A stretch of 64,000 nucleotides of DNA from Phycisphaerales bacterium (GTDB taxonomy: Bacteria > Planctomycetota > Phycisphaerae > Phycisphaerales > UBA1924). Each line of letters opens with the position of its first letter. Position 1 is the stretch's first letter. The notes beneath the pieces were generated by a model. The model made no database searches. It was not told the origin of the DNA and was given only the letters and a program-made list of their open reading frames with translations. A program made the position numbers and the translations under genes. The stretch is from contig JALUWX010000098.1 of NCBI GenBank assembly GCA_027019265.1, positions 62,001 through 126,000 on the forward strand, read 5' to 3'. Shown here piece after piece: positions 19,857 through 31,957 of this stretch.

Positions 19857-20902
19857 ACTGGACCTACGCCTACCCCTGGGTGTTCTGGCTCGCGTCCCTG
19901 GTGATCCTGGTCGCGCTCGTTCGGGTTGTGATGATCTCGCGCCGTCGAGGGATCGCCGTCCCGGCCGCCTCCTCTCGGCTCCGCGCGGCGGGCTCAAGCT
20001 TCCGTTCCTTGCTCCGTCCGATCCCCACGCTCCTCACGATCCTCGCCCTCCTCGTCGGGCTCGTCGCGCTCGCCCGCCCCCGAGAGATCATCTCCGATTC
20101 CAAGTCCTCGCAGGACGCGATCGCCCTCCAGCTGGTTGTTGACCGCTCCGGATCCATGGACGAACCCGCCGCGTTCAAGGGCGAGCAGACCAACCGGCTC
20201 GAAGCCGTCAAGAAGGTCGTGGAGCAGTTCGTCGTCGGCGACAGCAAGGACCTGAGAGGACGCGAAGGCGACCTCCTCGGGCTCATTGTCTTCGGGACCT
20301 TCGCCGACACGATCATGCCGCTGACCCAGTCCCACGAAGCGCTCGTCGAGGCGCTCCGCCGGATCGAGCTCCCGACCATCGAACGCGAACGCTCCACAGC
20401 GATCGGGGACGCCCTCATCCTCGCGTGTGCACGGCTCAAGGCCTCCGAAGACGCCATGCGCGCCGAACTCGACGATGAGGAGTTCGAACTCAAGAGCAAG
20501 GCCGTCGTCCTCCTCACCGACGGCGAGAACCGCGCGGGCGACTTCACCCCAGACCAAGCGGCGAGTCTTGCGAAAGACTGGGGGGTCAAGATCTACATCA
20601 TCGGGATCCGCGGCGGCACCACCCAGGCCGGCGGATTCTTCCGACTGAACATGGGGCAAGAAGTCAACGAAGAGCGCATGAGCGATGTCGCGGAATACAC
20701 GGGCGGGCACTTCTGGGGTGTGGACTCACTCGATCAACTCACCGACGTGTACGCCGCGATCGATGAGCTCGAACGCACCGAGATCCGTGTTTCCGAATCG
20801 ACCCGCTACGAGGAACGCTTCCAGCCCTATGCGATCGCGTCCATGCTCCTGCTCGTCGGCGCGTACCTGACCCGTGCCGCGTTCGGATCGGAGGTGGTGT
20901 GA
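19853..20902 (+). CDS. batA: BatA-like VWA-domain membrane protein
   Basis: 349 aa. The N-terminal membrane segments (WVFWLASLVILVALVRVVM and PTLLTILALLVGLVAL) precede a VWA domain with a complete MIDAS: VVDRSGSMD (DxSxS), the threonine in ERSTAIGDAL, and LTDGENRAGD. The domain faces the periplasm and a final helix (ASMLLLVGAYLTRAAF) anchors it. BatA and BatB pair in the aerotolerance operon of Bacteroides and relatives, where they contribute to envelope or oxidative-stress tolerance. Confidence 0.9.
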   Translation: MNWTYAYPWVFWLASLVILVALVRVVMISRRRGIAVPAASSRLRAAGSSFRSLLRPIPTLLTILALLVGLVALARPREIISDSKSSQDAIALQLVVDRSGSMDEPAAFKGEQTNRLEAVKKVVEQFVVGDSKDLRGREGDLLGLIVFGTFADTIMPLTQSHEALVEALRRIELPTIERERSTAIGDALILACARLKASEDAMRAELDDEEFELKSKAVVLLTDGENRAGDFTPDQAASLAKDWGVKIYIIGIRGGTTQAGGFFRLNMGQEVNEERMSDVAEYTGGHFWGVDSLDQLTDVYAAIDELERTEIRVSESTRYEERFQPYAIASMLLLVGAYLTRAAFGSEVV

Positions 20903-21954
20903 TGAACCACACAACACTCTTCGGACTCGTGGATCCGCGCTTCGCGGACCCCAACTGGATCCATGCGCTCTGGATCGTGCCGCTGGTTGCGCTGCTGCTC
21001 GCATTGTCCTTCTGGTTCCGTCGGCGTGGCGCGGACCGGTTCGCCGACGACGCACGGCGATCGAGCTTGGTCGGGCGGAAGCGTCTCCTCACCCCCTGGC
21101 TTCGGGTGACCTGCGCCGTCCTCTCGATCACCCTCGGCGCGATCGCTCTCGCGCGCCCCCAAGCCAACCCCGAATCCAGAGAAACCGAGACCAAGGGCCG
21201 AGACATCGTCTTCGTGCTCGATGTCTCCAGATCCATGCTCGCTCGAGATGTTGCTCCGAACCGACTCGACCGTGCCAAGCTCTGGATCAGGGATCTTGTG
21301 AACGAACTCCGTCAGGACCGGGTCGCGTTGGTCGCGTTCGCCGGATCTTCGAGTGTTGAATCTCCGCTCACCACTGACCGTCTTTTCTTCGACCTCGCCC
21401 TGGAAGAGCTCTCACCCAATAGCGTCGATGTCGGCGGGACCAATATCGGGGACGCGATCCGCCGCTGTATGGACCTCGTCTTCTATGACCTCGATGACGA
21501 AACGACCGCAGCGCACCGGGACATCATCCTCATCACCGATGGCGAGGATCAAGAATCCCTCCCGGTCGATGCCGCTCGCGCCGCTGCCGAGAGAGGAATC
21601 CGGATCATCACGATCGGGATCGGTTCCGAGACGGGTGATGTTGTCCGGGACGAACGCAACGAGCCCGTCACCCAACGCGGAACCCCCGTCCGCACCCGTC
21701 TCGATACATCAACGCTGACCCAGATCGCGGGCGCAACCCCCGGGGGGGTCTTCCTGAACGTCGGGACCGGGGATATCGATCTCGCACAGGTCTACCAGGA
21801 CCTCATCGCGAGCGCCGCCCAGACCGAGTTCGGGAAAGCTTCGATCACGACCTACGAGGAGTTCTACATCTATGCGCTCGCGCCGGCACTCGCGTTTGCG
21901 CTCCTCGAGTTTGCCCTGGGCTCGCTCGGGCTCAGAAAGGACCCGCGCCCATGA
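20899..21954 (+). CDS. batB: BatB-like VWA-domain membrane protein
   Basis: 351 aa, overlapping batA and batC by 4 bp each. Same plan as BatA: membrane helices at the N-terminus (LWIVPLVALLLALSFWF and a second near residue 70), a VWA domain with MIDAS motif VLDVSRSM (DxSxS), the GGTNIGDAI threonine and ITDGEDQES, and a C-terminal helix (YALAPALAFALLEFALG). It probably forms a heteromeric assembly with BatA. Confidence 0.9.
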   Translation: MMNHTTLFGLVDPRFADPNWIHALWIVPLVALLLALSFWFRRRGADRFADDARRSSLVGRKRLLTPWLRVTCAVLSITLGAIALARPQANPESRETETKGRDIVFVLDVSRSMLARDVAPNRLDRAKLWIRDLVNELRQDRVALVAFAGSSSVESPLTTDRLFFDLALEELSPNSVDVGGTNIGDAIRRCMDLVFYDLDDETTAAHRDIILITDGEDQESLPVDAARAAAERGIRIITIGIGSETGDVVRDERNEPVTQRGTPVRTRLDTSTLTQIAGATPGGVFLNVGTGDIDLAQVYQDLIASAAQTEFGKASITTYEEFYIYALAPALAFALLEFALGSLGLRKDPRP

Positions 21955-23063
21955 GACTCCGCCTCATCACCATCCTCGCGATCCTCCCCGCTCAGTTCAC
22001 GCTCGCGCAACCCGAGAGCGAGAACCCCACCCTGGACGAACAGACCGCGCGTGAGCAGATCACCAACGCGATCAGCACCATGGATACCGATCCAGAGCGC
22101 TCCCGCTCAACCCTGGAGCGGATCGCGGATCGCGCCCCGAGCAACGACCTCAAGGCGGCCGCCCTCTACAACAACGCTGTGCTCGCGAAACGAGAGTCCC
22201 GCACAGAGGATGCGCTCGAATCGTTCACCCAAGCCCGAACCCTGACGACCGACCCCGTCCTCCGTCGCGACGCGCTCGACAACATCGCGCACATCCATGC
22301 GAAGTACGGCGAGCTCCCGGATGACCAACCCCCTTCACTCGAATCGATCGACACAGCGCTCGAATCACTCCAGCTCGCCGAGCGTGCATTCCTCGATGCG
22401 TCCAGGACAGATCCATCGCACATGGAATCCATCCGGAACCTCCAGCGCACGCGCCAGCGGATCCGCGAGCTCGAACAGCAACGCGAACAGCTCGAGCAAC
22501 AGCAAAACCAACAGCAGCAACAGGGCGATCAAGGACCGCAGAACCAGAACTCGGACCAGCTCCAGCAGCTCGCAGATCAGCAGCGCGAACAAGCCCAACA
22601 GAGCGAGAGCGCCCAGTCCCAGAGACAATCCCAGGAACAACGCGAAGATCGCCAGCAACAACAACAGGACCTCTCCGAGCAGACCCAAAGCGCGCAGCAA
22701 CAGATGAGCGATTCGCTCGACGAAGAGACCCAGCAGGACCTTGAGCGAGCGCAGGAAGCCCAGCAACGCGCCCAAGAAGCCCTCGAACAGGGCAACGACG
22801 AACAAGCGGCGCAGGCGCAGCAGGAAGCCGCGGACGCGCTCGAGCAAGCCGCCCAGCGCCAACGCGAGCAGGAAGCCCAGAACCAACCCCAACACCAACC
22901 CCAGAACCAGCAAGGCGAGGGCGAACCCCAGGACGAAGGCGACCCACGCGACAATATCGATGAACTCGCGCAACGACTCCTCGATAAGGAACGCCGGGAA
23001 CGCGAACGCCGGAGCGTCTACAGACAAGGCGGGCAGCCCGTCCGTGTCGAGGAGGACTGGTAA
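21951..23063 (+). CDS. batC: BatC-like TPR protein with long Gln/Glu/Arg-rich region
   Basis: 370 aa. Signal peptide ending near FTLAQP; residues about 25-160 form TPR-like helices (SRSTLERIADRAPSNDLKAA, ALYNNAVLAKRESRTEDALE). Residues about 165-345 are almost wholly Q, E, R, A, D and S, predicted as coiled coil or disordered. This low-complexity region is far longer than in typical BatC. The position between batB and batD identifies it; TPRs probably mediate protein contacts in the Bat complex. Confidence 0.85.
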   Translation: MRLRLITILAILPAQFTLAQPESENPTLDEQTAREQITNAISTMDTDPERSRSTLERIADRAPSNDLKAAALYNNAVLAKRESRTEDALESFTQARTLTTDPVLRRDALDNIAHIHAKYGELPDDQPPSLESIDTALESLQLAERAFLDASRTDPSHMESIRNLQRTRQRIRELEQQREQLEQQQNQQQQQGDQGPQNQNSDQLQQLADQQREQAQQSESAQSQRQSQEQREDRQQQQQDLSEQTQSAQQQMSDSLDEETQQDLERAQEAQQRAQEALEQGNDEQAAQAQQEAADALEQAAQRQREQEAQNQPQHQPQNQQGEGEPQDEGDPRDNIDELAQRLLDKERRERERRSVYRQGGQPVRVEEDW

Positions 23064-24829
23064 TGCTACGAGTGACCACCATCATCGCATTGCTCCTCAC
23101 GCTGATCGCCCCAAGCGCGATCGCGCAGGACGACATCACCATTGAGTCGCAGCTCTCCTCATCGAGCGCCTACGTCGGTGAAGAGCTCACCCTCCAAGTC
23201 CTGGTCCGGGGCGCGGACACCGCCGAACAACCGGAGATCGATTTCCCGGACACACTCTTGGTCGAGTACCGAGGGGTAAGCCGGAACACCTTCTCAAGCA
23301 CCCGCTACATCAACGGACGCCAAACCACAACGAGGGATGATCGCTACACCCACACCTACCGGATTACGGTCAAGGAAAACGGGCTCATCGAGATCCCCCC
23401 CGCGCGTCTCACCATCAACGGACGCACCTACGAATCCCATCCAAACCAGCTCGTCGCACGACTCCCCCAGCTCGCCGACACCGACGCGATCGAACTCGCC
23501 CTCCCCGACCGCCCTGTCTACGTCGGGGAATCGATCAACGCCGAAATCAGTTGGTGGATCGGTGGCTCGACCTCGGGCTTCAGTTTCGACTCGAGTATCT
23601 TCCCCGGCTCCGTTCGGGTCGCGCCCGGCGAAACTCCCGCCCCCAACGGGGACCAACGCGCCTTCGAGTTCCTCGGTGATCAAACCATCGGTGTCGTCGA
23701 GCAGGTCATCCGAGACGGCCAACCCATGACCCGACTCCGATTTTCCCTCCGGATCACTCCCGCCCGACCCGGAGCGATCGAGATCGGTCCGATCCGCGCG
23801 GTCTTCGTCCGCACCGATGACTTCAACCGAGGCCGCCGCGCGTACGCGGAATCCGATCCTGTCATCCTCAACGTCTCCGATGTCCCCACACAAGGCCGCC
23901 CCAAGGACTACAACGGCCTGATCGGTCAGTACGCCCTCCGCACAGGCGCATCGAACACCAGCGTCAACGTCGGGGATCCCATCGAACTCCAGCTTCTCAT
24001 CCGTGGAGACGAGCCCATGGTCGCTCTCCGCGATTCCCTCAACACCTCCACGCTCGAAGCTTCCGGATTCCGAGTCTCCCCCGATGGCTGGCGTGAAACC
24101 GATCGCCGCCGAACAGGTGAACGCGTGTACACCACCACCATCCGTGCGACCGATGCATCGATCAACGCGATCCCTCCCATCGAGCTCTCGACCTTCGACC
24201 CCGAGCAAGGCCGCTACTCCACCGCCCGCTCCGATCCCATCCCGCTCAATGTGCGAGCCGTCCGCCAAATCACACTCGACGACGCCATCGTCTCCGACCA
24301 ATCCTCCCCCGTGTCACCAAAACGTGAGCTCGAGCGCAACCACAACATTGTCTGGGCGCACCCAAGCACCAACCAGATCATCGGATCGGAACACCGGTTC
24401 GATCTCATCGGATCCCTCCGCTCCTCGGGTGTCATTGCGATCCTCGCAATCGCGTTCGGCGTGCCCCTCATCGCGCTCGGTTGGCGCGTCTGGTTCACAC
24501 ACCACGATCCGGACCAAGCCCGGATCCACCGCGCGTGGAAGCAAGCCCGATCTCTCCACGCCAAGGGTGAGCACGCGCGAGCCCTCCGGGTCTACGCGGG
24601 AGCGCTCCTCAACGCCGACCCCGACTCCCTCACGAGCGATGACCTGTCCCGTCTGAGTGCGAGCGAATCCACACTCGAATCGACCCGGAGGGTCCTCACC
24701 CTCGAAGAGTCCGCGCACTTCGCGCCCCCACCGGCCAGGAGCGACCGACCCGCCCCGGATCGACGAATCCTCCATCAGCTCCGTCGAGAAGCCCGCCCCG
24801 TTTCCAAACGCAAGGGGGTCCGCTCATGA
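23063..24829 (+). CDS. batD: BatD-like oxygen-tolerance protein
   Basis: 588 aa, start sharing one base with the batC stop (TAATG). A cleavable signal (LIAPSAIAQD) is followed by several immunoglobulin-like beta domains: SSSSAYVGEELTLQVLVRG, VKENGLIEIPPARLTINGR and PVYVGESINAEISWWIGG. A transmembrane helix follows near residues 450-470 (VIAILAIAFGVPLIALGWRV), then a cytoplasmic helical tail. This matches the BatD family (PF13584). It is presumed to be the large periplasmic scaffold of the Bat complex. Confidence 0.9.
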   Translation: MLRVTTIIALLLTLIAPSAIAQDDITIESQLSSSSAYVGEELTLQVLVRGADTAEQPEIDFPDTLLVEYRGVSRNTFSSTRYINGRQTTTRDDRYTHTYRITVKENGLIEIPPARLTINGRTYESHPNQLVARLPQLADTDAIELALPDRPVYVGESINAEISWWIGGSTSGFSFDSSIFPGSVRVAPGETPAPNGDQRAFEFLGDQTIGVVEQVIRDGQPMTRLRFSLRITPARPGAIEIGPIRAVFVRTDDFNRGRRAYAESDPVILNVSDVPTQGRPKDYNGLIGQYALRTGASNTSVNVGDPIELQLLIRGDEPMVALRDSLNTSTLEASGFRVSPDGWRETDRRRTGERVYTTTIRATDASINAIPPIELSTFDPEQGRYSTARSDPIPLNVRAVRQITLDDAIVSDQSSPVSPKRELERNHNIVWAHPSTNQIIGSEHRFDLIGSLRSSGVIAILAIAFGVPLIALGWRVWFTHHDPDQARIHRAWKQARSLHAKGEHARALRVYAGALLNADPDSLTSDDLSRLSASESTLESTRRVLTLEESAHFAPPPARSDRPAPDRRILHQLRREARPVSKRKGVRS

Positions 24830-25623
24830 TCCGCGCCCTGATCATCTCGCTCGTCCTCCTCGTCCCCGGCGCGTTCGCTTCGGTCTCGATCGACGAAGCA
24901 CTCCAAGATCTGGACAACGCGATTGCTTCACACGAGCAGAGCACCAATCCTCAAAGCATCTTCGAAGCGGCCGCGATCCTCGAACACGCGTTCGAGGAGC
25001 AAGACATCGAAACCTCCGGCGCATCGCTCGCGCTCGGGAACGCATACTTCATCGCCGGCGATCTCGGCCAAGCGATCCTCCACTACAAACGGGGCACTGA
25101 CATCGACCCACGCTCCCCCGAGCTCCGTGACAACCTCAAACACGCTCGCTCCCTCGTCGAGCCCGCTCCTCGAGCCGATGGTTCACTCAGCTTCTCCAAG
25201 ATCGCTCTCTCTTGGCGCGGGTTCATCGCCCGACGCGCCCTGCTCACACTCTCACTCGGCTTCCTCATGCTCTCCAGCGTCATCGCCACACTCGCGATTA
25301 TTCGGGTCCGTATCCCTCGCCCCAGACTCCTTACATTCACCTCCCTGACTCTCGCGATCCTCGCGATCGTCCCCCTTGGGTTCGAAGCCTGGACCACCCA
25401 CGCAAACCCCGAGATCGTGATCGTGGATCCGAACACCCAGGCCATGTCGGGCCCGAGTGCGAGCGCGTACGACCCCGTCTTCGAACAACCCCTCGGCGCA
25501 GGGGTCGAAGCCCGGGTCATCGACTCGAAAGACGGATGGATCCACGTGGAGCTCGGATCAGGGGATCGGTGCTGGATCGATCAGGAACGAGCCCGATACG
25601 TGGTCCCCCAAGCCCGAAGCTGA
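24826..25623 (+). CDS. batE: BatE-like protein: TPR, two membrane helices, SH3-like tail
   Basis: 265 aa. Signal-like N-terminus (IISLVLLVPGAFAS), a TPR pair (GASLALGNAYFIAGDLGQAI, LHYKRGTDIDPRSPELRDNL), two adjacent membrane helices (LTLSLGFLMLSSVIATLAII and LLTFTSLTLAILAIVPLGF), and a C-terminal SH3b-like domain (GAGVEARVIDSKDGWIHVEL, ending with DRCWIDQ). This domain order is that of BatE. It is the last gene of the chain; thiolase begins 21 bp later and may be read from the same transcript. Confidence 0.85.
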   Translation: MIRALIISLVLLVPGAFASVSIDEALQDLDNAIASHEQSTNPQSIFEAAAILEHAFEEQDIETSGASLALGNAYFIAGDLGQAILHYKRGTDIDPRSPELRDNLKHARSLVEPAPRADGSLSFSKIALSWRGFIARRALLTLSLGFLMLSSVIATLAIIRVRIPRPRLLTFTSLTLAILAIVPLGFEAWTTHANPEIVIVDPNTQAMSGPSASAYDPVFEQPLGAGVEARVIDSKDGWIHVELGSGDRCWIDQERARYVVPQARS

Positions 25624-25644: not shown

Positions 25645-26850
25645 ATGCAACGACGTGCCGCCGTGATCTGTGCTCTCCGTACCCCCGTCGGCCGATACGG
25701 CGGGACCCTCTCCAGCATCCGACCCGACGACCTCGCGGCCCACATCATCCGCGCTGTCGTCGAACGATCCGGAATCAACCCGGAACTCATCGACGATGTC
25801 TATATGGGTGATGCGAACCAAGCGGGTGAAAGCAACCGCAATGTCGCGCGGATGGCTTCGCTCATCGCCGGGCTCCCCGAATCCGTCCCGGGCACGACGG
25901 TCAATCGCTTATGCGCCTCCGGGCTCGAAGCGATCCACATCGCCGCTCGGATGATCGAAGCCAACCACGGCGATGTCTTCATCGCCGGCGGCGTCGAGTC
26001 GATGAGCCGCGCCCCGCTCGTCATGAGCAAAGCGGAGAGCGCGTTCGATCGGAACCAGAAGATCTACGACACCTCCATCGGATGGAGATTCATCAATCCC
26101 AAACTCTCCGAACTCCATCACCCATACTCGATGGGTGAAACCGCGGAGAACGTCGCTCGGGACCACGGGGTGTCGCGCGAAGACCAAGACAAGTTCGCCG
26201 TTTCGAGCCAGCAGAAGTGGGCCAAAGCCCAAGCCGAGGGAAAGTTCGCTGACGAACTCGTCCCCGTCGAGATCCCCCAGCGCAAAGCCAACCCGATCGT
26301 CTTCGACACCGACGAGCATCCGCGCCCCGACACCACCCTCGACATCCTCGCCAAGCTCCGCCCAGCCTTCGTCAAGGATGGCTCCGGGACCGTCACAGCC
26401 GGAAACTCGTCCGGGGTCAACGATGGCTCCGCCGCCCTCCTCCTCGTGGAAGCGAATAAAGCCGAATCCCTCGGGCTTGAGCCCATTGCGTATGCAGGAT
26501 CGAGCGCGAGCGCTGGGGTCGACCCCGCGTTCATGGGCATCGGTCCGGTCCCCGCGATCCGCAAAGCCCTCGACCGAGCCGAGCTCGCGCTGAACGATAT
26601 CGATCTCGTCGAGATCAACGAGGCCTTCGCCGCCCAGTCCATCGCATGTGTACGAGAACTCGGGCTCGATGACTCCATCGTCAACGTCAACGGCGGCGCC
26701 ATCGCGATCGGTCACCCCCTCGGGTGCTCGGGCGCGCGGATCGCCACCACCCTTATCCATGAGATGATCAAACGCGACAGCAAGCGCGGGGTGGCCGCAC
26801 TGTGCGTGGGTGTTGGACAGGGTCTCGCGACCGTGTTCGAACGAGTCTGA
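25645..26850 (+). CDS. Acetyl-CoA acyltransferase / thiolase (3-oxoadipyl-CoA type similarity)
   Basis: 401 aa. Complete thiolase active site: NRLCASGLEA with nucleophile Cys90, NEAFAAQSIA, GGAIAIGHPLGCSGAR (His) and CVGVGQG (second Cys). Degradative thiolases cleave 3-oxoacyl-CoA with CoA to acetyl-CoA plus a shortened acyl-CoA. The MQRRAAVICALRTPVGRYGG start and overall pattern resemble PcaF/PaaJ-type enzymes. It converges, with no gap, on the CoA-transferase/aminotransferase operon, whose product would be a 3-oxoacyl-CoA, suggesting a shared pathway. Confidence 0.92.
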   Translation: MQRRAAVICALRTPVGRYGGTLSSIRPDDLAAHIIRAVVERSGINPELIDDVYMGDANQAGESNRNVARMASLIAGLPESVPGTTVNRLCASGLEAIHIAARMIEANHGDVFIAGGVESMSRAPLVMSKAESAFDRNQKIYDTSIGWRFINPKLSELHHPYSMGETAENVARDHGVSREDQDKFAVSSQQKWAKAQAEGKFADELVPVEIPQRKANPIVFDTDEHPRPDTTLDILAKLRPAFVKDGSGTVTAGNSSGVNDGSAALLLVEANKAESLGLEPIAYAGSSASAGVDPAFMGIGPVPAIRKALDRAELALNDIDLVEINEAFAAQSIACVRELGLDDSIVNVNGGAIAIGHPLGCSGARIATTLIHEMIKRDSKRGVAALCVGVGQGLATVFERV

Positions 26851-28173
26851 TCAGCCCATCTTCTTGAGAATCTCGAACCCGCTCGTGAGCGCTCCAACGA
26901 GCGTGTCGATCTCATCGTCCCCCATCGGGGTCGAGAGCGCGGCCGAGCACGAGTTGATCATGATGATCCCGTGATCGAAGAGGTGATCGAGCAGCGTCGT
27001 AAGCCGTTTGCTCTCCTCAGGGCTCATGAACGCTTCTCGATAGTTCGTCGGGGCCTGTGATTTCATGTGGACCCGGAACATCGAGCCCGCGCCCGTCACG
27101 CTCGCGCACACACCCGTGTCCGAGATGGCTTTCTCAATGTCTTTCTTCGCACGATCCGCGAGCGCGTTGAGTCGCTCGATCGCGGCACGGTCGAACTTTT
27201 GCATCGCGATCAGCCCGGCCGTCGTGCTGATCGGATTCGCGCTGTATGTCCCCGAGTGCGGGTACAGGTACCGTTTCGACTTCGGGTTGAGCACATCCAT
27301 CACAAAGTCACGACCCGCGACCGCGCCGATCGGGAATCCCCCGCCGATCATCTTCCCCATCGCCGTCATGTCCGGGGTGATCCCGTAGTGTTCTTGGAGC
27401 CCAGAGAAGCCGGAACGGAACGTGATGACTTCATCAAGAATGAGCATAACCCCGTTCGCGCTCGTCCACTCACGCAGTGCATGGACGTAGTCCTGCTGCG
27501 CCGGATTCAGCCCGACCCGGTGGGGCATCAGGTCCAGCACCAGACACGCGAGTTTGTCCTTATTCCGATCGAGCAGCGCGATCGAACCCTCGATGTCGTT
27601 GTACGGGATCACCACCACGTCATCGATCGCCGACGACGGGGTTCCGTGCACGAGGGGTACCCTCGACGGGTCTTTCGCTTCACCCCAGTTACTCGGCCCG
27701 GGGGTCTGGCTCACCTCCACGTAGTCGTACCCCCCGTGGTACGCGCCCTCCGCTTTCGCGATCATCGGGCGCTCTGTGTACGCGCGTGACGCTTTGATCG
27801 CGACCATCAACGCTTCGGTCCCGGAGTTCACGAACCGCATCTTCTCGAACGTCGGGTTCCGCGACGACAGATACTCCGCGTACTCGATCTCGATCTCGGT
27901 CCCGACATTGAACGCTGTCCCACGAGCGGCCTGTGCGCTCACAGCGCGGACCATGTCCGGATCAGCGTGCCCGTGGATCAGCGAAGCCATGTTGTTCGCG
28001 AAGTCGATCCGGGACACACCCTCGACATCGATCAGCCGGCATCCCTCGCCGTGATTCGCATAGAGCGGGTGCGGGTCTCGGATCACCGCGTTCCGGCTCA
28101 CCCCACCCGGGAGGACCCTCAGCGCCCGCTCGTACAACTCGGCGCTGCGCGACGTCTCGATACCAGTGCTCAT
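26851..28173 (-). CDS. Class III PLP aminotransferase (GSA-aminomutase / beta-amino-acid aminotransferase type)
   Basis: About 440 aa from the ATG at 28173. Fold-type I class III enzyme: FVNSGTEALMVAIKASRAYT (cofactor phosphate site), LDEVITFR (Asp contacting the pyridine N) and AMGKMIGGGFPIGA with the PLP lysine. It is homologous to glutamate-1-semialdehyde aminomutase, but the active-site stretch DEVITFR lacks the G of DEVMTGFR usual in HemL and is closer to what I recall of (S)-beta-amino-acid aminotransferases. Operon context with an aminomutase and a CoA-transferase favours a catabolic aminotransferase over HemL. Confidence 0.8.
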   Translation of the reverse strand: MSTGIETSRSAELYERALRVLPGGVSRNAVIRDPHPLYANHGEGCRLIDVEGVSRIDFANNMASLIHGHADPDMVRAVSAQAARGTAFNVGTEIEIEYAEYLSSRNPTFEKMRFVNSGTEALMVAIKASRAYTERPMIAKAEGAYHGGYDYVEVSQTPGPSNWGEAKDPSRVPLVHGTPSSAIDDVVVIPYNDIEGSIALLDRNKDKLACLVLDLMPHRVGLNPAQQDYVHALREWTSANGVMLILDEVITFRSGFSGLQEHYGITPDMTAMGKMIGGGFPIGAVAGRDFVMDVLNPKSKRYLYPHSGTYSANPISTTAGLIAMQKFDRAAIERLNALADRAKKDIEKAISDTGVCASVTGAGSMFRVHMKSQAPTNYREAFMSPEESKRLTTLLDHLFDHGIIMINSCSAALSTPMGDDEIDTLVGALTSGFEILKKMG

Positions 28174-28189
28174 GGCGATATTCCGTTGT

Positions 28190-28855
28190 TCAGTGCGAAA
28201 GGGGAAGCAGTTGCGCACCCGTGCGCTCCTGCACATACGCAAAGTCCGCTCCGGGGGTCAGCTCCACGAGCCTGAACCCGTCCGGGGTGACATCGATCAC
28301 CGCAAGATCCGTATACACCCGTGTCACCACACCCAGACCCGTCAGCGGGTACGTGCACGATTCGACGAGCTTGGGCTCCCCCGTCTTGGTTGTGTGCTGG
28401 GTGATGACGTAAATCTTCTTCACCCCGGCGACGAGATCCATCGCGCCACCCACGGCCGGGATCGCGCCCTCCTCACCCGTTGACCAGTTCGCAAGGTCCC
28501 CGTTCTGCGCCACCTGGAGCGCCCCAAGCACGCACAGATCAAGGTGACCCCCACGGATCATCGAGAACGAATCCGCGTGGTGGAAGTAGGCCGCGCCCGG
28601 GATCGCAGAAACCTGCTTCTTCCCGGCGTTGATCAGCTCCGGATCACCCTCGCCCTCCTCGGGCGAAGGACCCATCCCGAGGAGCCCGTTCTCCGTGTGG
28701 TAGATGAGCGTGCGCCCCTCAGGAACAAACTTGGCGACGAGTTCGGGGATCCCGATCCCGAGGTTCACATAGGACCCATTCTCGATGTCCTGCGCGACGC
28801 GCTGCGCCATCTGCTCACGGGTCCAACCAACTCGCTGTGTCATCGATTCGCTCAT
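28190..28855 (-). CDS. 3-oxoacid CoA-transferase, subunit B
   Basis: 221 aa. CoA-transferase family I beta subunit, with catalytic Glu55 in YHTENGLLG and NLGIGIPELV, GGHLDLCVLGALQV and the LTPGADFAYVQERTGA end. It transfers CoA from succinyl-CoA or acetyl-CoA to a 3-oxo acid together with subunit A, whose gene overlaps it by 4 bp. Could be ScoB, AtoA or PcaJ; genomic context (aminomutase, aminotransferase, thiolase) suggests a 3-oxo acid derived from a beta-amino acid. Confidence 0.92.
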   Translation of the reverse strand: MSESMTQRVGWTREQMAQRVAQDIENGSYVNLGIGIPELVAKFVPEGRTLIYHTENGLLGMGPSPEEGEGDPELINAGKKQVSAIPGAAYFHHADSFSMIRGGHLDLCVLGALQVAQNGDLANWSTGEEGAIPAVGGAMDLVAGVKKIYVITQHTTKTGEPKLVESCTYPLTGLGVVTRVYTDLAVIDVTPDGFRLVELTPGADFAYVQERTGAQLLPLSH

Positions 28856-29562
28856 GGGTACGACACCCCCGCCGCGATCAGTTCGCTCTCGTGCGCGGGC
28901 TCAGCGACCTCGACCACGCGTGACACAAAGATCCCAGGCGACACCACAGACTCCGGATCGATCCCACCGGGCTCAACGACCGACTCGACCTGCACGATCG
29001 AGACCTTCGCGGCCATCGCCATGATCGGTCCGAAGTTCCGGGCTGTCTTGTTGTACACGACGTTCCCGTACGTGTCCGCGCTCCGTCCCTTCACGAACGC
29101 GAAGTCCGCTTTGAGCCCGTGCTCCATCACGTACTCACGACCGTCGAACTCGCGCGATTCCTTCCCCTCAGCGAGCGGGGTCCCGACCGCGCTCGGGGTG
29201 TAGAACGCGGGGATCCCAGCACCGCCCGCGCGGATGCGCTCCGCGAGTGTCCCCTGAGGAACAAGCTCGAGTTCGCACTTCCCCGCGCGATAGAGCTCGG
29301 GGAACACCGTGGAGTTCGCCGTCCTCGGGAATGAGCAGATGAACTTCCGGACCCGACCCGCTTTGAGCAGCGCCGCGAGCCCGACCTCGCCGGAGCCCGT
29401 GTTGTTGCTCACGATCGTCAGGTCCTTGGAACCCTGATCGATCAACGCGTGGATCAGCTCGATCGGAGAGCCGGCCTCGCCGAACCCGCCGACCATAACT
29501 GTCGCGCCGTCGAACACATCGCGGACGGCTTCCGCCGGACTCGAAATCTGTTTGTCGATCAT
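28852..29562 (-). CDS. 3-oxoacid CoA-transferase, subunit A
   Basis: 236 aa. Alpha subunit signatures: GATVMVGGFGEAGSPIELI (glycine-rich oxyanion/CoA site), NNTGSGEVGLAALL, PQGTLAERIRAGGAGIPAFY, FAFVKGRSADTYGNVVYNKT. It forms the heteromeric CoA-transferase with the next gene. ATG overlaps the stop of the KamA-like gene (ATGA), so translation is coupled. Confidence 0.92.
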   Translation of the reverse strand: MIDKQISSPAEAVRDVFDGATVMVGGFGEAGSPIELIHALIDQGSKDLTIVSNNTGSGEVGLAALLKAGRVRKFICSFPRTANSTVFPELYRAGKCELELVPQGTLAERIRAGGAGIPAFYTPSAVGTPLAEGKESREFDGREYVMEHGLKADFAFVKGRSADTYGNVVYNKTARNFGPIMAMAAKVSIVQVESVVEPGGIDPESVVSPGIFVSRVVEVAEPAHESELIAAGVSYP

Positions 29563-31007
29563 GTCGCTTTCTGCTCGACCGTGACCTTGATCATGTTCGG
29601 GTTCGCGACTCGCTCGTACTCGAAGAGCCCGGCCTGGTCGAACAGCACCCGATCCGCATAATCATCAAACCACATCGCGTTCGGATTGCGCCCCACGATA
29701 CAGACCTTCCCACGATCCGGCGCATCCGCGGCGTTCCGGAGGAGCTTGAAGATCACGACCCCGTTCTCGCTCCCCTTCAGCCCCTCGATGGGCTCATCCG
29801 TGACCGCGACAACCTCGGTCTTGCCCTTGTAGTGGGTGATCGACATCCGCGCGTGACACTCGACACCCGACAACCCCTTCTGGGAGTCGTTCAGGGTGCG
29901 CCACGCTGTCTCGATCGGGACGTTGAACGCTTTGTACGCAACGATGTCGCGACCACAGAAGAAGTAGTGGTTCTCACCACCCACGCGCTTGAACTCACGC
30001 TGGAGAATCCGGAGCGCATCGGAATCGTCGTTAATCCCCTTGATGATCGGCGCCTGGTTCTCGACCGTAAGCCAACCACGCTTGACGAGCTCGCGCATCG
30101 CACGACCCGTTGAGGGAATCCACTGGAGGAAGCCCTTCTCGTCCTTGATGTAGTTCCCGTCGTCGTCCTTCGCGAGGATCTCGTCGGGGTGCTCGAAGTG
30201 GAGCATGAAGCTCATCCCCACCTCGGGGTACGTCTCGTGGAACGCATCGAGCATCGCCAGGAACGTGTCGTCGAACCGATCGGGGTAGAAGGCCATCTCC
30301 TTGGTCCCGATCCGGATCGTCTCGATCCCGGCCTCAGCGAGCGCTCCGAACCAAGCAGCGAGCTTCGAGTTATTCAGCACCATCGGGTCACCACCCGAGA
30401 GCAGGATCTCGCGCAGCTTCTCGCGCCCCGTGTCCGGATGGCGCCCCCCGTTCTTCTCAACAAGCTCGTTGTGGGACTTGATGTAGGCCACGATCTCGGG
30501 GATCTTCGCGAGCCCCTTCTTCGCGACCGTCCCGTCCTGGCGTTGGATCTCTTTCCGCGCGATAAGTTCTTCTCTGTAGCAGAAACGACAGTGCGCCGAG
30601 CACGTCGAGACCACATACATGAGCCCCATCTCGTACTTGTGGAGCAGACCCTCCACAGGCGCGTAGTCCATCTGGTTCCCCGGGTCCTCGGAACCCGCAA
30701 GATCGAGGGTCTCGTCCGAGCTCGCTTTCACGAGCTTCTGGATCGGGGGGCTCTTCCGAGCGAGTTCGTAGAAGTGACGGGTGATCTTGACGGGCATCCG
30801 TTGCTCAACGTCCCGCTCCGTCCCTTTGAGCGATTTGAGCTTCTCGATCTCGTCGGAGTCGTAGAAGGTCAGCATGTCATCGGGAGCTTTGTCGTTGAAG
30901 AACGGCGCGAGACCATTGATGATCTCCCGTTCGTACCGCGCGTCCTCGACCGTGTCGAGAAAGGCCTGCTCACGTTCAGTCGGGACATGTTTCGGTGCGA
31001 TCTGCAT
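29559..31007 (-). CDS. KamA-like (lysine 2,3-aminomutase family) radical SAM protein
   Basis: About 482 aa from the ATG at 31007 with GGAG upstream. Radical SAM cluster CSAHCRFC (Cys136, Cys140, Cys143) with the KamA-type spacing CxxxCxxC and following YREE. Then LLSGGDPMVLNNSKL (SAM binding) and PIIKGINDDSDALRIL. KamA enzymes move an amino group from C2 to C3 (lysine, glutamate or arginine) using PLP. The PLP motif PGGGGK of classical LAM is replaced by a region reading THYKGKTEV; its lysine may be the equivalent, but this is uncertain. First gene of an operon with the CoA-transferase and a class III aminotransferase. Confidence 0.85.
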   Translation of the reverse strand: MQIAPKHVPTEREQAFLDTVEDARYEREIINGLAPFFNDKAPDDMLTFYDSDEIEKLKSLKGTERDVEQRMPVKITRHFYELARKSPPIQKLVKASSDETLDLAGSEDPGNQMDYAPVEGLLHKYEMGLMYVVSTCSAHCRFCYREELIARKEIQRQDGTVAKKGLAKIPEIVAYIKSHNELVEKNGGRHPDTGREKLREILLSGGDPMVLNNSKLAAWFGALAEAGIETIRIGTKEMAFYPDRFDDTFLAMLDAFHETYPEVGMSFMLHFEHPDEILAKDDDGNYIKDEKGFLQWIPSTGRAMRELVKRGWLTVENQAPIIKGINDDSDALRILQREFKRVGGENHYFFCGRDIVAYKAFNVPIETAWRTLNDSQKGLSGVECHARMSITHYKGKTEVVAVTDEPIEGLKGSENGVVIFKLLRNAADAPDRGKVCIVGRNPNAMWFDDYADRVLFDQAGLFEYERVANPNMIKVTVEQKAT

Positions 31008-31058: not shown

Positions 31059-31086
31059 AGTGTACACTGGATGAACACAAGTGTAA
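31059..31086. promoter_or_regulatory. Candidate operator in the KamA/RpiR divergent region
   Basis: A perfect 10-bp palindrome AGTGTACACT (31059-31068) is followed about 11 bp later by a further AAGTGTAAC half-site. It lies between the divergent KamA-like and RpiR-family genes, where an RpiR-type regulator controlling both would bind. Palindrome seen; function inferred. Confidence 0.5.
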
Positions 31087-31111: not shown

Positions 31112-31957
31112 TTGTCGCTCCAAGAATTGATCGCGCCCATCAATCAGAAGCTCACCCCCACCGAGCTCCGGATCGCGCAAGCCGTCCTCACCGATCCAAC
31201 CCTCCTGGCCTTCGGGACCGTATCGGACCTCGCGAACCACGTAGGGACCTCCCGCCCCTCCATCATCCGCTTCGCCACCAAGCTCGGATTCGACGGCTAC
31301 ACCGACCTCCAAACCTGGATCCGGGACGATCTGACCCGACAGCTCTCCTCCCCGAGCCAGCGCATCCGGAGACAGGACGGTTCCCTCGGACCCATCCGGA
31401 CCCAGATCGAATCCGCCGTCCGGACCAACCTCGAAGCGCTCGACCAGCCCAAGCTCGACACCCTCGCGAAGCCCATCACCAAAGCCAAACGGGTCTGGAT
31501 CCTGAGCGGCGAAACCTCGATGGCCGGCGCACACGCGCTCCATTCCGGGCTCTCCATGGTGCGTCCCGATGTCCGACTCGTCGAGGAGCACGACACGGGA
31601 CGGGACCTCTCAAGCGCCTCACCCGGGGATGTCGCCGTCGTCTTCGACTTCGCCCGGTACCGACGGAACTCAATCTCAGCAGCCCGAGCCCTCGCAGAAC
31701 TCGGGGTCACGATCGTCGCGATCACTGACGGCCCCATGTCCCCCCTCGCGTCCCTCACCCAGACGTGGTGCGAACTCACCATCCCCGCCGTCGGCCCGTT
31801 CGATTCCTCGGTCCCGGCCGTCCTCGCCGCGGAGCTCATCGTCGTCCGGGTCGTCCAGCACCTCGGAGACGATGCGCGGGACCGGATCGACCGACTCGAA
31901 CAACTCTGGCAATCCACGGGGACGTTCCTGAACTACTCCCCACGTCCTGATCGCTGA
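31112..31957 (+). CDS. MurR/RpiR family transcriptional regulator (HTH + SIS)
   Basis: 281 aa using TTG at 31112, which has GGAGA 7-8 bp upstream; no ATG fits. N-terminal RpiR-type HTH (KLTPTELRIAQAVLTDPTLL, SDLANHVGTSRPSIIRFATKLG) and a C-terminal SIS domain (AKRVWILSGETSMAGAHAL, SASPGDVAVVFDFARYRRNS). SIS domains normally sense phosphosugars, yet the divergent operon is amino/oxo-acid metabolism, so the ligand may differ. Convergent with the histidine kinase. Confidence 0.88.
   Translation: MSLQELIAPINQKLTPTELRIAQAVLTDPTLLAFGTVSDLANHVGTSRPSIIRFATKLGFDGYTDLQTWIRDDLTRQLSSPSQRIRRQDGSLGPIRTQIESAVRTNLEALDQPKLDTLAKPITKAKRVWILSGETSMAGAHALHSGLSMVRPDVRLVEEHDTGRDLSSASPGDVAVVFDFARYRRNSISAARALAELGVTIVAITDGPMSPLASLTQTWCELTIPAVGPFDSSVPAVLAAELIVVRVVQHLGDDARDRIDRLEQLWQSTGTFLNYSPRPDR

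Follow-up and report, generated by a model that had tools for sequence, protein, structure and literature searches.

We analysed a gene cluster within a 64,000-nucleotide window from a Phycisphaerales bacterium (contig JALUWX010000098.1, positions 62,001 to 126,000), whose genome assembly comprises 3.04 Mb in 122 contigs and is 91.5% complete. Four genes on the minus strand encode, in order, a KamA-like radical S-adenosylmethionine/pyridoxal phosphate (PLP) protein (29559-31007; here called M-type), a PcaI-like coenzyme A (CoA)-transferase subunit A (28852-29562), a PcaJ-like subunit B (28190-28855), and a HemL-like class III aminotransferase (26851-28173; PF00202). A reading made from the sequence alone, without database searches (the sequence-only reading), had described these genes in this order, and all of them were found where it had placed them; the operon end that it gave, 31007, fits the Met start of the KamA-like gene. 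The KamA-like, CoA-transferase A, and CoA-transferase B genes are joined by successive 4-base overlaps. The aminotransferase gene likely starts at its ATG, with a longer TTG-start open reading frame (ORF) reaching 28242. A PcaF-like thiolase gene on the plus strand (25645-26850) abuts the 3′ end of the operon, as had also been noted, and meets the aminotransferase gene stop to stop at 26850/26851. Upstream lies a divergent gene for an RpiR/SIS-domain transcriptional regulator (31112-31957, plus strand; probable start TTG 31112, judged by eye). Pfam and NCBIfam searches confirmed the CoA-transferase, class III aminotransferase, thiolase, and HTH_6 plus SIS classes.

A scan of genome contigs returned 182 relatives of the KamA-like protein, and the loci of the best 80 of these (identities 71-84%) were compared, with a locus entering a denominator only where its contig was long enough to hold the gene in question. 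CoA-transferase A followed KamA in 76/76 loci, while CoA-transferase B and the aminotransferase were present in order in 69 of 70 and 62 of 63 loci, respectively. The sequence-only reading had made the joint conservation of the four genes in relatives a test of its proposal, and they do travel together. The facing PcaF-like thiolase was present in 45 of 60 loci, and RpiR lay upstream of KamA in 44 of the 69 loci with room there, in agreement with the regulator anticipated earlier. ORF clustering across loci, which distant similarity could escape, revealed no recurrent family besides these six genes, overlapping frames, and the synteny of close relatives; the additional family scan covered 10 of the 213 listed neighbouring ORFs. 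The relatives were mostly Phycisphaerae by label, and since the order was kept in loci labelled Planctomycetota, Verrucomicrobiota, and Acidobacteria, it reflects more than chance. The module is genuine, and its conservation extends across phyla. The operon is split in one Verrucomicrobiota locus, where unrelated ORFs spanning ~3 kb (L079:10245-13086) separate CoA-transferase B from A. A metagenome-assembled genome labelled Alphaproteobacteria (L019) carries a whole planctomycete-type module and is possibly mislabelled or mixed.

The M-type KamA was found in 10 of 294 sampled genomes of the window's phylum, the window genome included, and was lacking in 5 of the 7 sampled genomes of the window's own family. 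For the phylum of L035, a Verrucomicrobiota locus, the count was 3 of 288 genomes, one of which (L153) encodes a 50% KamA relative with no partner genes nearby; for that of L067, a locus labelled Acidobacteria, it was 5 of 297 genomes, one copy being partial. In the class to which the L158 genome (of the L067 phylum) belongs, 3 of 9 genomes gave a match, all of them already known, and no further cluster came to light. No relative was found in the viral contigs searched. In the tree, two Verrucomicrobiota KamA sequences were nested inside the Phycisphaerae sequences with starred support, suggesting that the operon was transferred horizontally between phyla, if the bins are clean.

The first enzyme had been read as a KamA-like 2,3-aminomutase. 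This assignment stood with respect to fold and catalytic residues, whereas the family score was weak. The sole solved-structure sequence match was 2a5h, a clostridial lysine 2,3-aminomutase (LAM), which was also the top fold match (E 5.6e-11; TM score 0.51 on the query) of the predicted structure model (pLDDT 76.8, pTM 0.79). The protein scored 89 bits against the KamA family model (cut-off 199), 65.8 bits against lysine 2,3-aminomutase TIGR03820 (cut-off 525.4), and 73 bits against glutamate 2,3-aminomutase TIGR04368 (cut-off 650), all below threshold, and had no Pfam match. In the tree, the module KamA type formed a single 100/100 branch apart from the LAM-like and EpmB-like sequences.

Pocket residues were compared in an alignment made with planctomycete LAM-like proteins such as L115-L118; for LAM numbering, we take Arg134 to bind the substrate carboxylate, Lys337 to bind PLP, and Asp293 and Asp330 to bind the side-chain amine of lysine. 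The iron–sulphur cysteines C136-C140-C143 (CxxxCxxC), R145 (LAM R134), and K396 (LAM K337) were present in 95/95 aligned module-type sequences. At the LAM Asp293 position, R353 was Arg in all 95, and at the Asp330 position, T391 was Thr in 94 of 95. Glutamate 2,3-aminomutase presumably has Lys and Asn at these two positions, that is, a basic residue replacing Asp293. Since Arg replaces the lysine-binding Asp293, the acidic-to-basic change suggests a substrate with a distal carboxylate; this is a lead rather than proof because Asp354 adjoins Arg353. A second planctomycete KamA-like subfamily (L127, L129, and L130) also has Arg at the Asp293 position and lies near genes that, labelled by eye, are HisF/HisH-like or of polysaccharide type. 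For more distant KamA-like proteins, the regions of 7 of the 10 loci in L093-L102 and of one LAM-like locus were inspected by eye, and neither partner enzymes nor any hint of a substrate could be recognised there.

The aminotransferase could have been HemL itself, and the sequence-only reading had named this as a point to be decided. The protein scored 321.3 bits against the HemL model (cut-off 527.3), and its best solved matches were 6k8h (402 bits) and ForI (370 bits), with the best glutamate-1-semialdehyde aminomutase at ~212 bits. Gene content was compared between 17 module genomes (10 from the window-phylum sample and 7 hand-chosen from among the genomes of the 80 loci) and 13 module-less genomes of the same family, order, or class without a match in that sample. 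Eight of the 17 module genomes contained a separate HemL-like gene (486-593 bits, 4 of the 8 over the cut-off), and HemB was found in exactly these 8; in the other 9, the window's included, HemB was absent and no additional HemL-like gene exceeded 185 bits. In an alignment limited to aminotransferase sequences longer than 410 residues and to seven of eight HemL loci (L105 was dropped for an internal stop), K297 and H241-R242 were present in 67/67 module aminotransferases, and the H241-R242 pair differed in all 7 HemL-like sequences. HemL identity was rejected on the basis of the sub-cut-off score, the distribution of HemB and second HemL-like genes, and H241-R242. Genes of this module are easily labelled lysine aminomutase and HemL, which affects annotation. 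Apart from the module's own gene, neither the window genome (G000) nor a relative that is 99% complete (G095) has a HemL-like gene, and both lack HemB; heme auxotrophy is probable in this group.

The CoA-transferase and the thiolase resembled enzymes of the beta-ketoadipate pathway. Both CoA-transferase subunits passed the PcaIJ/ScoAB family cut-offs (subunit A, TIGR02429, 354 bits vs 128.5; subunit B, TIGR02428, 298.8 bits vs 243.55). Rhizobium etli and Neorhizobium have counterparts in the context IclR, CoA-transferase A, B, and pcaF, to which subunit A was 65.4% and 66.2% identical and subunit B 60-61% identical; one A counterpart is annotated pcaI. In a spread of 30 matches of subunit A, identity stayed below 50% for all six whose listed name was simply "CoA transferase subunit A". 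The window thiolase was 55-58% identical to PcaF, and its 25 listed plasmid matches comprised 15 annotated pcaF, 1 paaJ, 1 other, and 8 without annotation. Nine of the 17 module genomes encoded a PcaF-like thiolase (at least 548 bits), which in eight of them lay within ~10 kb of the module; the 13 module-less relatives had none (best 347 bits). The closest plasmid relative of the window CoA-transferase A, a Tistrella copy (L173:1860-2822), lies near a DUF1338 gene; DUF1338 (HglS) is described as a 2-oxoadipate enzyme of lysine catabolism (PMC7286885).

Three outlying clusters bear on the substrate. In the rearranged L158 cluster, a partial KamA at the contig end is accompanied by RpiR, both CoA-transferase genes, a different aminotransferase (34%), and a thiolase that, at 669.9 bits, exceeds the PcaF cut-off of 597; a search of this genome for the intradiol dioxygenase family PF00775 gave no match. 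On a plasmid of Mesorhizobium sp. 113-3-3, the KamA type (63.7%) is found together with a ferredoxin, the aminotransferase (55.6%), and a CoA-transferase of another family, which scored only 19-21 bits against the PcaIJ models. The subunits of this replacement were 82.6% and 80.9% identical to those of an enzyme that a protocatechuate operon of Chelatococcus encodes between pcaG and pcaF; for a Methylocella pca-operon enzyme, the values were 77% and 76%. Of its four relatives examined, two lie in annotated pca operons, a third is unannotated with a PcaF-like thiolase adjoining, and the fourth is fragmented and has no annotated pca gene in its vicinity. The aminotransferase gene of L067 is followed after ~65 bases by a saccharopine dehydrogenase-like gene, whose best solved match is human alpha-aminoadipic semialdehyde synthase (AASS), and an OCD/mu-crystallin gene lies upstream of RpiR. 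On the Mesorhizobium plasmid, the CoA-transferase alpha gene (L136:19140-19979) is unannotated with an apparent frameshift near its start, and a BREX phage-defence cluster (L136:1-10899) lies upstream of the module.

The general chemistry, from an alpha-amino acid via a beta-amino acid and a keto acid to a CoA ester and thiolysis, is well supported by inference from these enzyme classes and fits the chain that the sequence-only reading had drawn, except that the order of aminotransferase and CoA-transferase could be reversed. For the substrate, the PcaI-like CoA-transferase, the PcaF-like thiolase, the Mesorhizobium replacement, and the L067 saccharopine dehydrogenase-like gene point to 3-oxoadipate as the intermediate. 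The use of two CoA-transferase families in the same role, both pca-like, is the strongest of these clues. Since a 2,3-shift followed by transamination of 2-aminoadipate, a lysine breakdown product, yields 3-oxoadipate, we propose on balance, with somewhat better than even confidence, that the operon serves to degrade an acidic alpha-amino acid, with L-2-aminoadipate as the most likely one; it has probably spread by horizontal transfer. The M-type enzyme, as a putative 2-aminoadipate 2,3-aminomutase, would shift the amino group from C2 to C3 to give 3-aminoadipate; the aminotransferase would convert 3-aminoadipate to 3-oxoadipate; the CoA-transferase would form 3-oxoadipyl-CoA; and the thiolase, as a 3-oxoadipyl-CoA thiolase, would release succinyl-CoA and acetyl-CoA. 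We consider it an evenly balanced proposition that this new KamA-superfamily branch is a 2-aminoadipate 2,3-aminomutase opening a lysine-derived route into the beta-ketoadipate pathway, a route that would bypass 2-oxoadipate and glutaryl-CoA and would have spread from phylum to phylum as a single operon. The sequence-only reading had listed lysine and arginine among the substrates to be tried, both of which the pocket residues disfavour, and it had not named the likely substrate, 2-aminoadipate.

Known bacterial breakdown of 2-aminoadipate proceeds via 2-oxoadipate. The HglS step of that route (PMC7286885) and bacterial routes from lysine to 2-aminoadipate (PMC5653290) have been described, and no aminomutase route from 2-aminoadipate to 3-oxoadipate was found in the open-access literature searched, with subscription journals mostly outside this scope. 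If the proposal is true, an aminomutase route straight to 3-oxoadipate would constitute a new branch of lysine metabolism, would add a substrate to those of the KamA superfamily, and would give 3-aminoadipate a physiological role. Because the Mesorhizobium strain carries a version of the module, direct testing is possible.

Several observations weigh against 2-aminoadipate. Asp354 is nearly invariant, so the charge of the pocket around Arg353 is not certain. The best families of the window thiolase are 3-oxoadipyl-CoA thiolases, with scores of 567-571 bits that fall under both cut-offs (597 and 605; 567.3 bits against PcaF TIGR02430, cut-off 597), and six other module thiolases scanned were likewise under the PcaF cut-off at 535-589 bits. 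Among solved structures, beta-ketoadipyl-CoA thiolase ranked third (460 bits), after an unnamed and a putative acetyl-CoA thiolase (472 and 463 bits), and PcaF homologues also serve phenylacetate breakdown. The best solved matches of the CoA-transferase were succinyl-CoA:3-ketoacid CoA-transferases, that of the Mesorhizobium replacement was glutaconate CoA-transferase, and the best plasmid match of subunit A (Tistrella, 68.9%) is not beside pcaF. No PcaF-like thiolase was found in 8 of the 17 module genomes, including that of L067, where the best thiolase scored 391 bits against PcaF; the L067 dehydrogenase matched no NCBIfam model at 1e-10. Mesorhizobium, L158, and L067 are each single instances, and in L158 the KamA is partial and the aminotransferase different. 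A general link between the module and saccharopine dehydrogenase was rejected, since PF16653, the saccharopine dehydrogenase family, occurred in 7 of the 17 genomes with the module and in 4 of the 13 that lack it, which is no real association. PF16653 was searched for and not found in the window genome, which has only two class III aminotransferases, and this makes the supply of 2-aminoadipate there a difficulty for the proposal. An origin of 3-oxoadipate from protocatechuate or catechol was rejected for the window genome, as PF00775 had no match in it or in 14 others of the 22 module genomes searched; the remaining 7 had matches of at most 56 bits.

The supply difficulty would vanish if the same module acted on glutamate, which is present in every cell, giving beta-glutamate, 3-oxoglutarate, and 3-oxoglutaryl-CoA and then acetyl-CoA and malonyl-CoA. 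The Arg in place of LAM Asp293 is compatible with any distal carboxylate, and glutamate 2,3-aminomutase, which shares the KamA superfamily and an acidic substrate with the proposed enzyme, presumably also has non-Asp residues at the LAM Asp positions, with a basic one at Asp293. We nevertheless regard glutamate as unlikely, because the CoA-transferase and thiolase are PcaIJ/PcaF-like, the Mesorhizobium replacement resembles a pca-operon enzyme, L067 joins the module to a lysine-pathway gene, and the aminomutase falls far short of the glutamate 2,3-aminomutase model (73 vs 650 bits), with Arg/Thr instead of the presumed Lys/Asn. An improbable alternative is that another amino acid, such as leucine, an aromatic, or one of unknown identity, is degraded and that the PcaIJF resemblance reflects ancestry only. 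Family-level likeness does not fix a substrate, and 15 of the 60 loci with room lack the adjacent thiolase. The Verrucomicrobiota locus L035 has an SCP2-type thiolase upstream, as do L036 and L079 (by sequence starts) and the L154 genome; among the genomes with this thiolase type, G298 and G300 also carry a PcaF-like thiolase nearby. Against this alternative stand the invariant Arg where LAM holds the distal group of its substrate and the pca-like replacement enzymes in two outlying clusters.

The order of the steps could also differ from that proposed for 2-aminoadipate, in that the CoA-transferase may first make a beta-aminoacyl-CoA and the HemL-like aminotransferase may then act on the thioester. 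Kat of the lysine fermenter Cloacamonas is such a HemL-like beta-transaminase, acting on 3-aminobutyryl-CoA and active on thioesters only, in an organism without other porphyrin genes (PMC3149608). Kat closely parallels the HemL/HemB pattern of the module genomes, and, given its restriction to CoA esters, aminotransferase and CoA-transferase could act in either order here. We judge the reversed order to be quite unlikely, given that the CoA-transferases resemble pca-operon enzymes, which take the free 3-oxo acid. Least probable, and remote in our estimate, is a lysine substrate following the beta-lysine route proposed for Bacillus (yodTSRQP-kamA), ending in 4-aminobutyryl-CoA and acetyl-CoA. 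The enzyme classes are the same (aminomutase, aminotransferase, CoA-transferase, and thiolase) and the KamA fold is shared, but both positions of the lysine-amine-binding Asp residues are altered, the LAM model gives 65.8 bits against 525, and no acetyltransferase or deacetylase family (YodP/YodQ-type) recurs beside the module, the whole genome not having been searched for these families.

The 2-aminoadipate proposal can be set against known systems. By enzyme classes, the nearest appears to be the Bacillus subtilis operon yodT-yodS-yodR-yodQ-yodP-kamA of the acetylated beta-lysine route, which likewise brings together KamA, a class III aminotransferase, and a CoA-transferase for beta-amino acid catabolism. 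The module differs in that its KamA is a far branch, whereas Bacillus KamA is ~60% identical to clostridial LAM, and in that its aminotransferase is HemL-like, whereas YodT is classed as putatively BioA-type, its nearest paralogue being YhxA (35%), both according to PMC6522883. Lysine fermentation (kamA, kamDE, kdd, kce, kal or kat, and atoDA) shares with the module the 2,3-aminomutase start and, in Kat, a HemL-like beta-transaminase; no further gene family recurs with the module, the module thiolase is PcaF-like, and the KamA-like enzyme departs from LAM both in score and at Asp293/Asp330. To the pcaIJ-pcaF part of the beta-ketoadipate pathway, a pathway known to date for aromatic compounds, the module is related through CoA-transferase A (65-66% to PcaI) and the thiolase (55-58% to PcaF), but in the module an amino acid would be the precursor of the 3-oxo acid.

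Between the RpiR and KamA genes lies a palindrome, AGTGTACACT (31059-31068, no strand), which recurs in RpiR-bearing upstream regions and is a possible operator. With 0-1 mismatch allowed, 16 of the 51 upstream regions that have RpiR contained it, as against none of the 37 that lack RpiR and 3 of 1020 shuffled regions, counts that ignore the kinship of the sequences, whose relatedness inflates the contrast. RpiR therefore likely controls the operon from the shared intergenic region. Before the thiolase gene, the window contains an operon resembling the aerotolerance-type (Bat) operons (20899-25623), encoding a VWA protein, a DUF4175 protein, a BatD-like protein, and a TPR protein.

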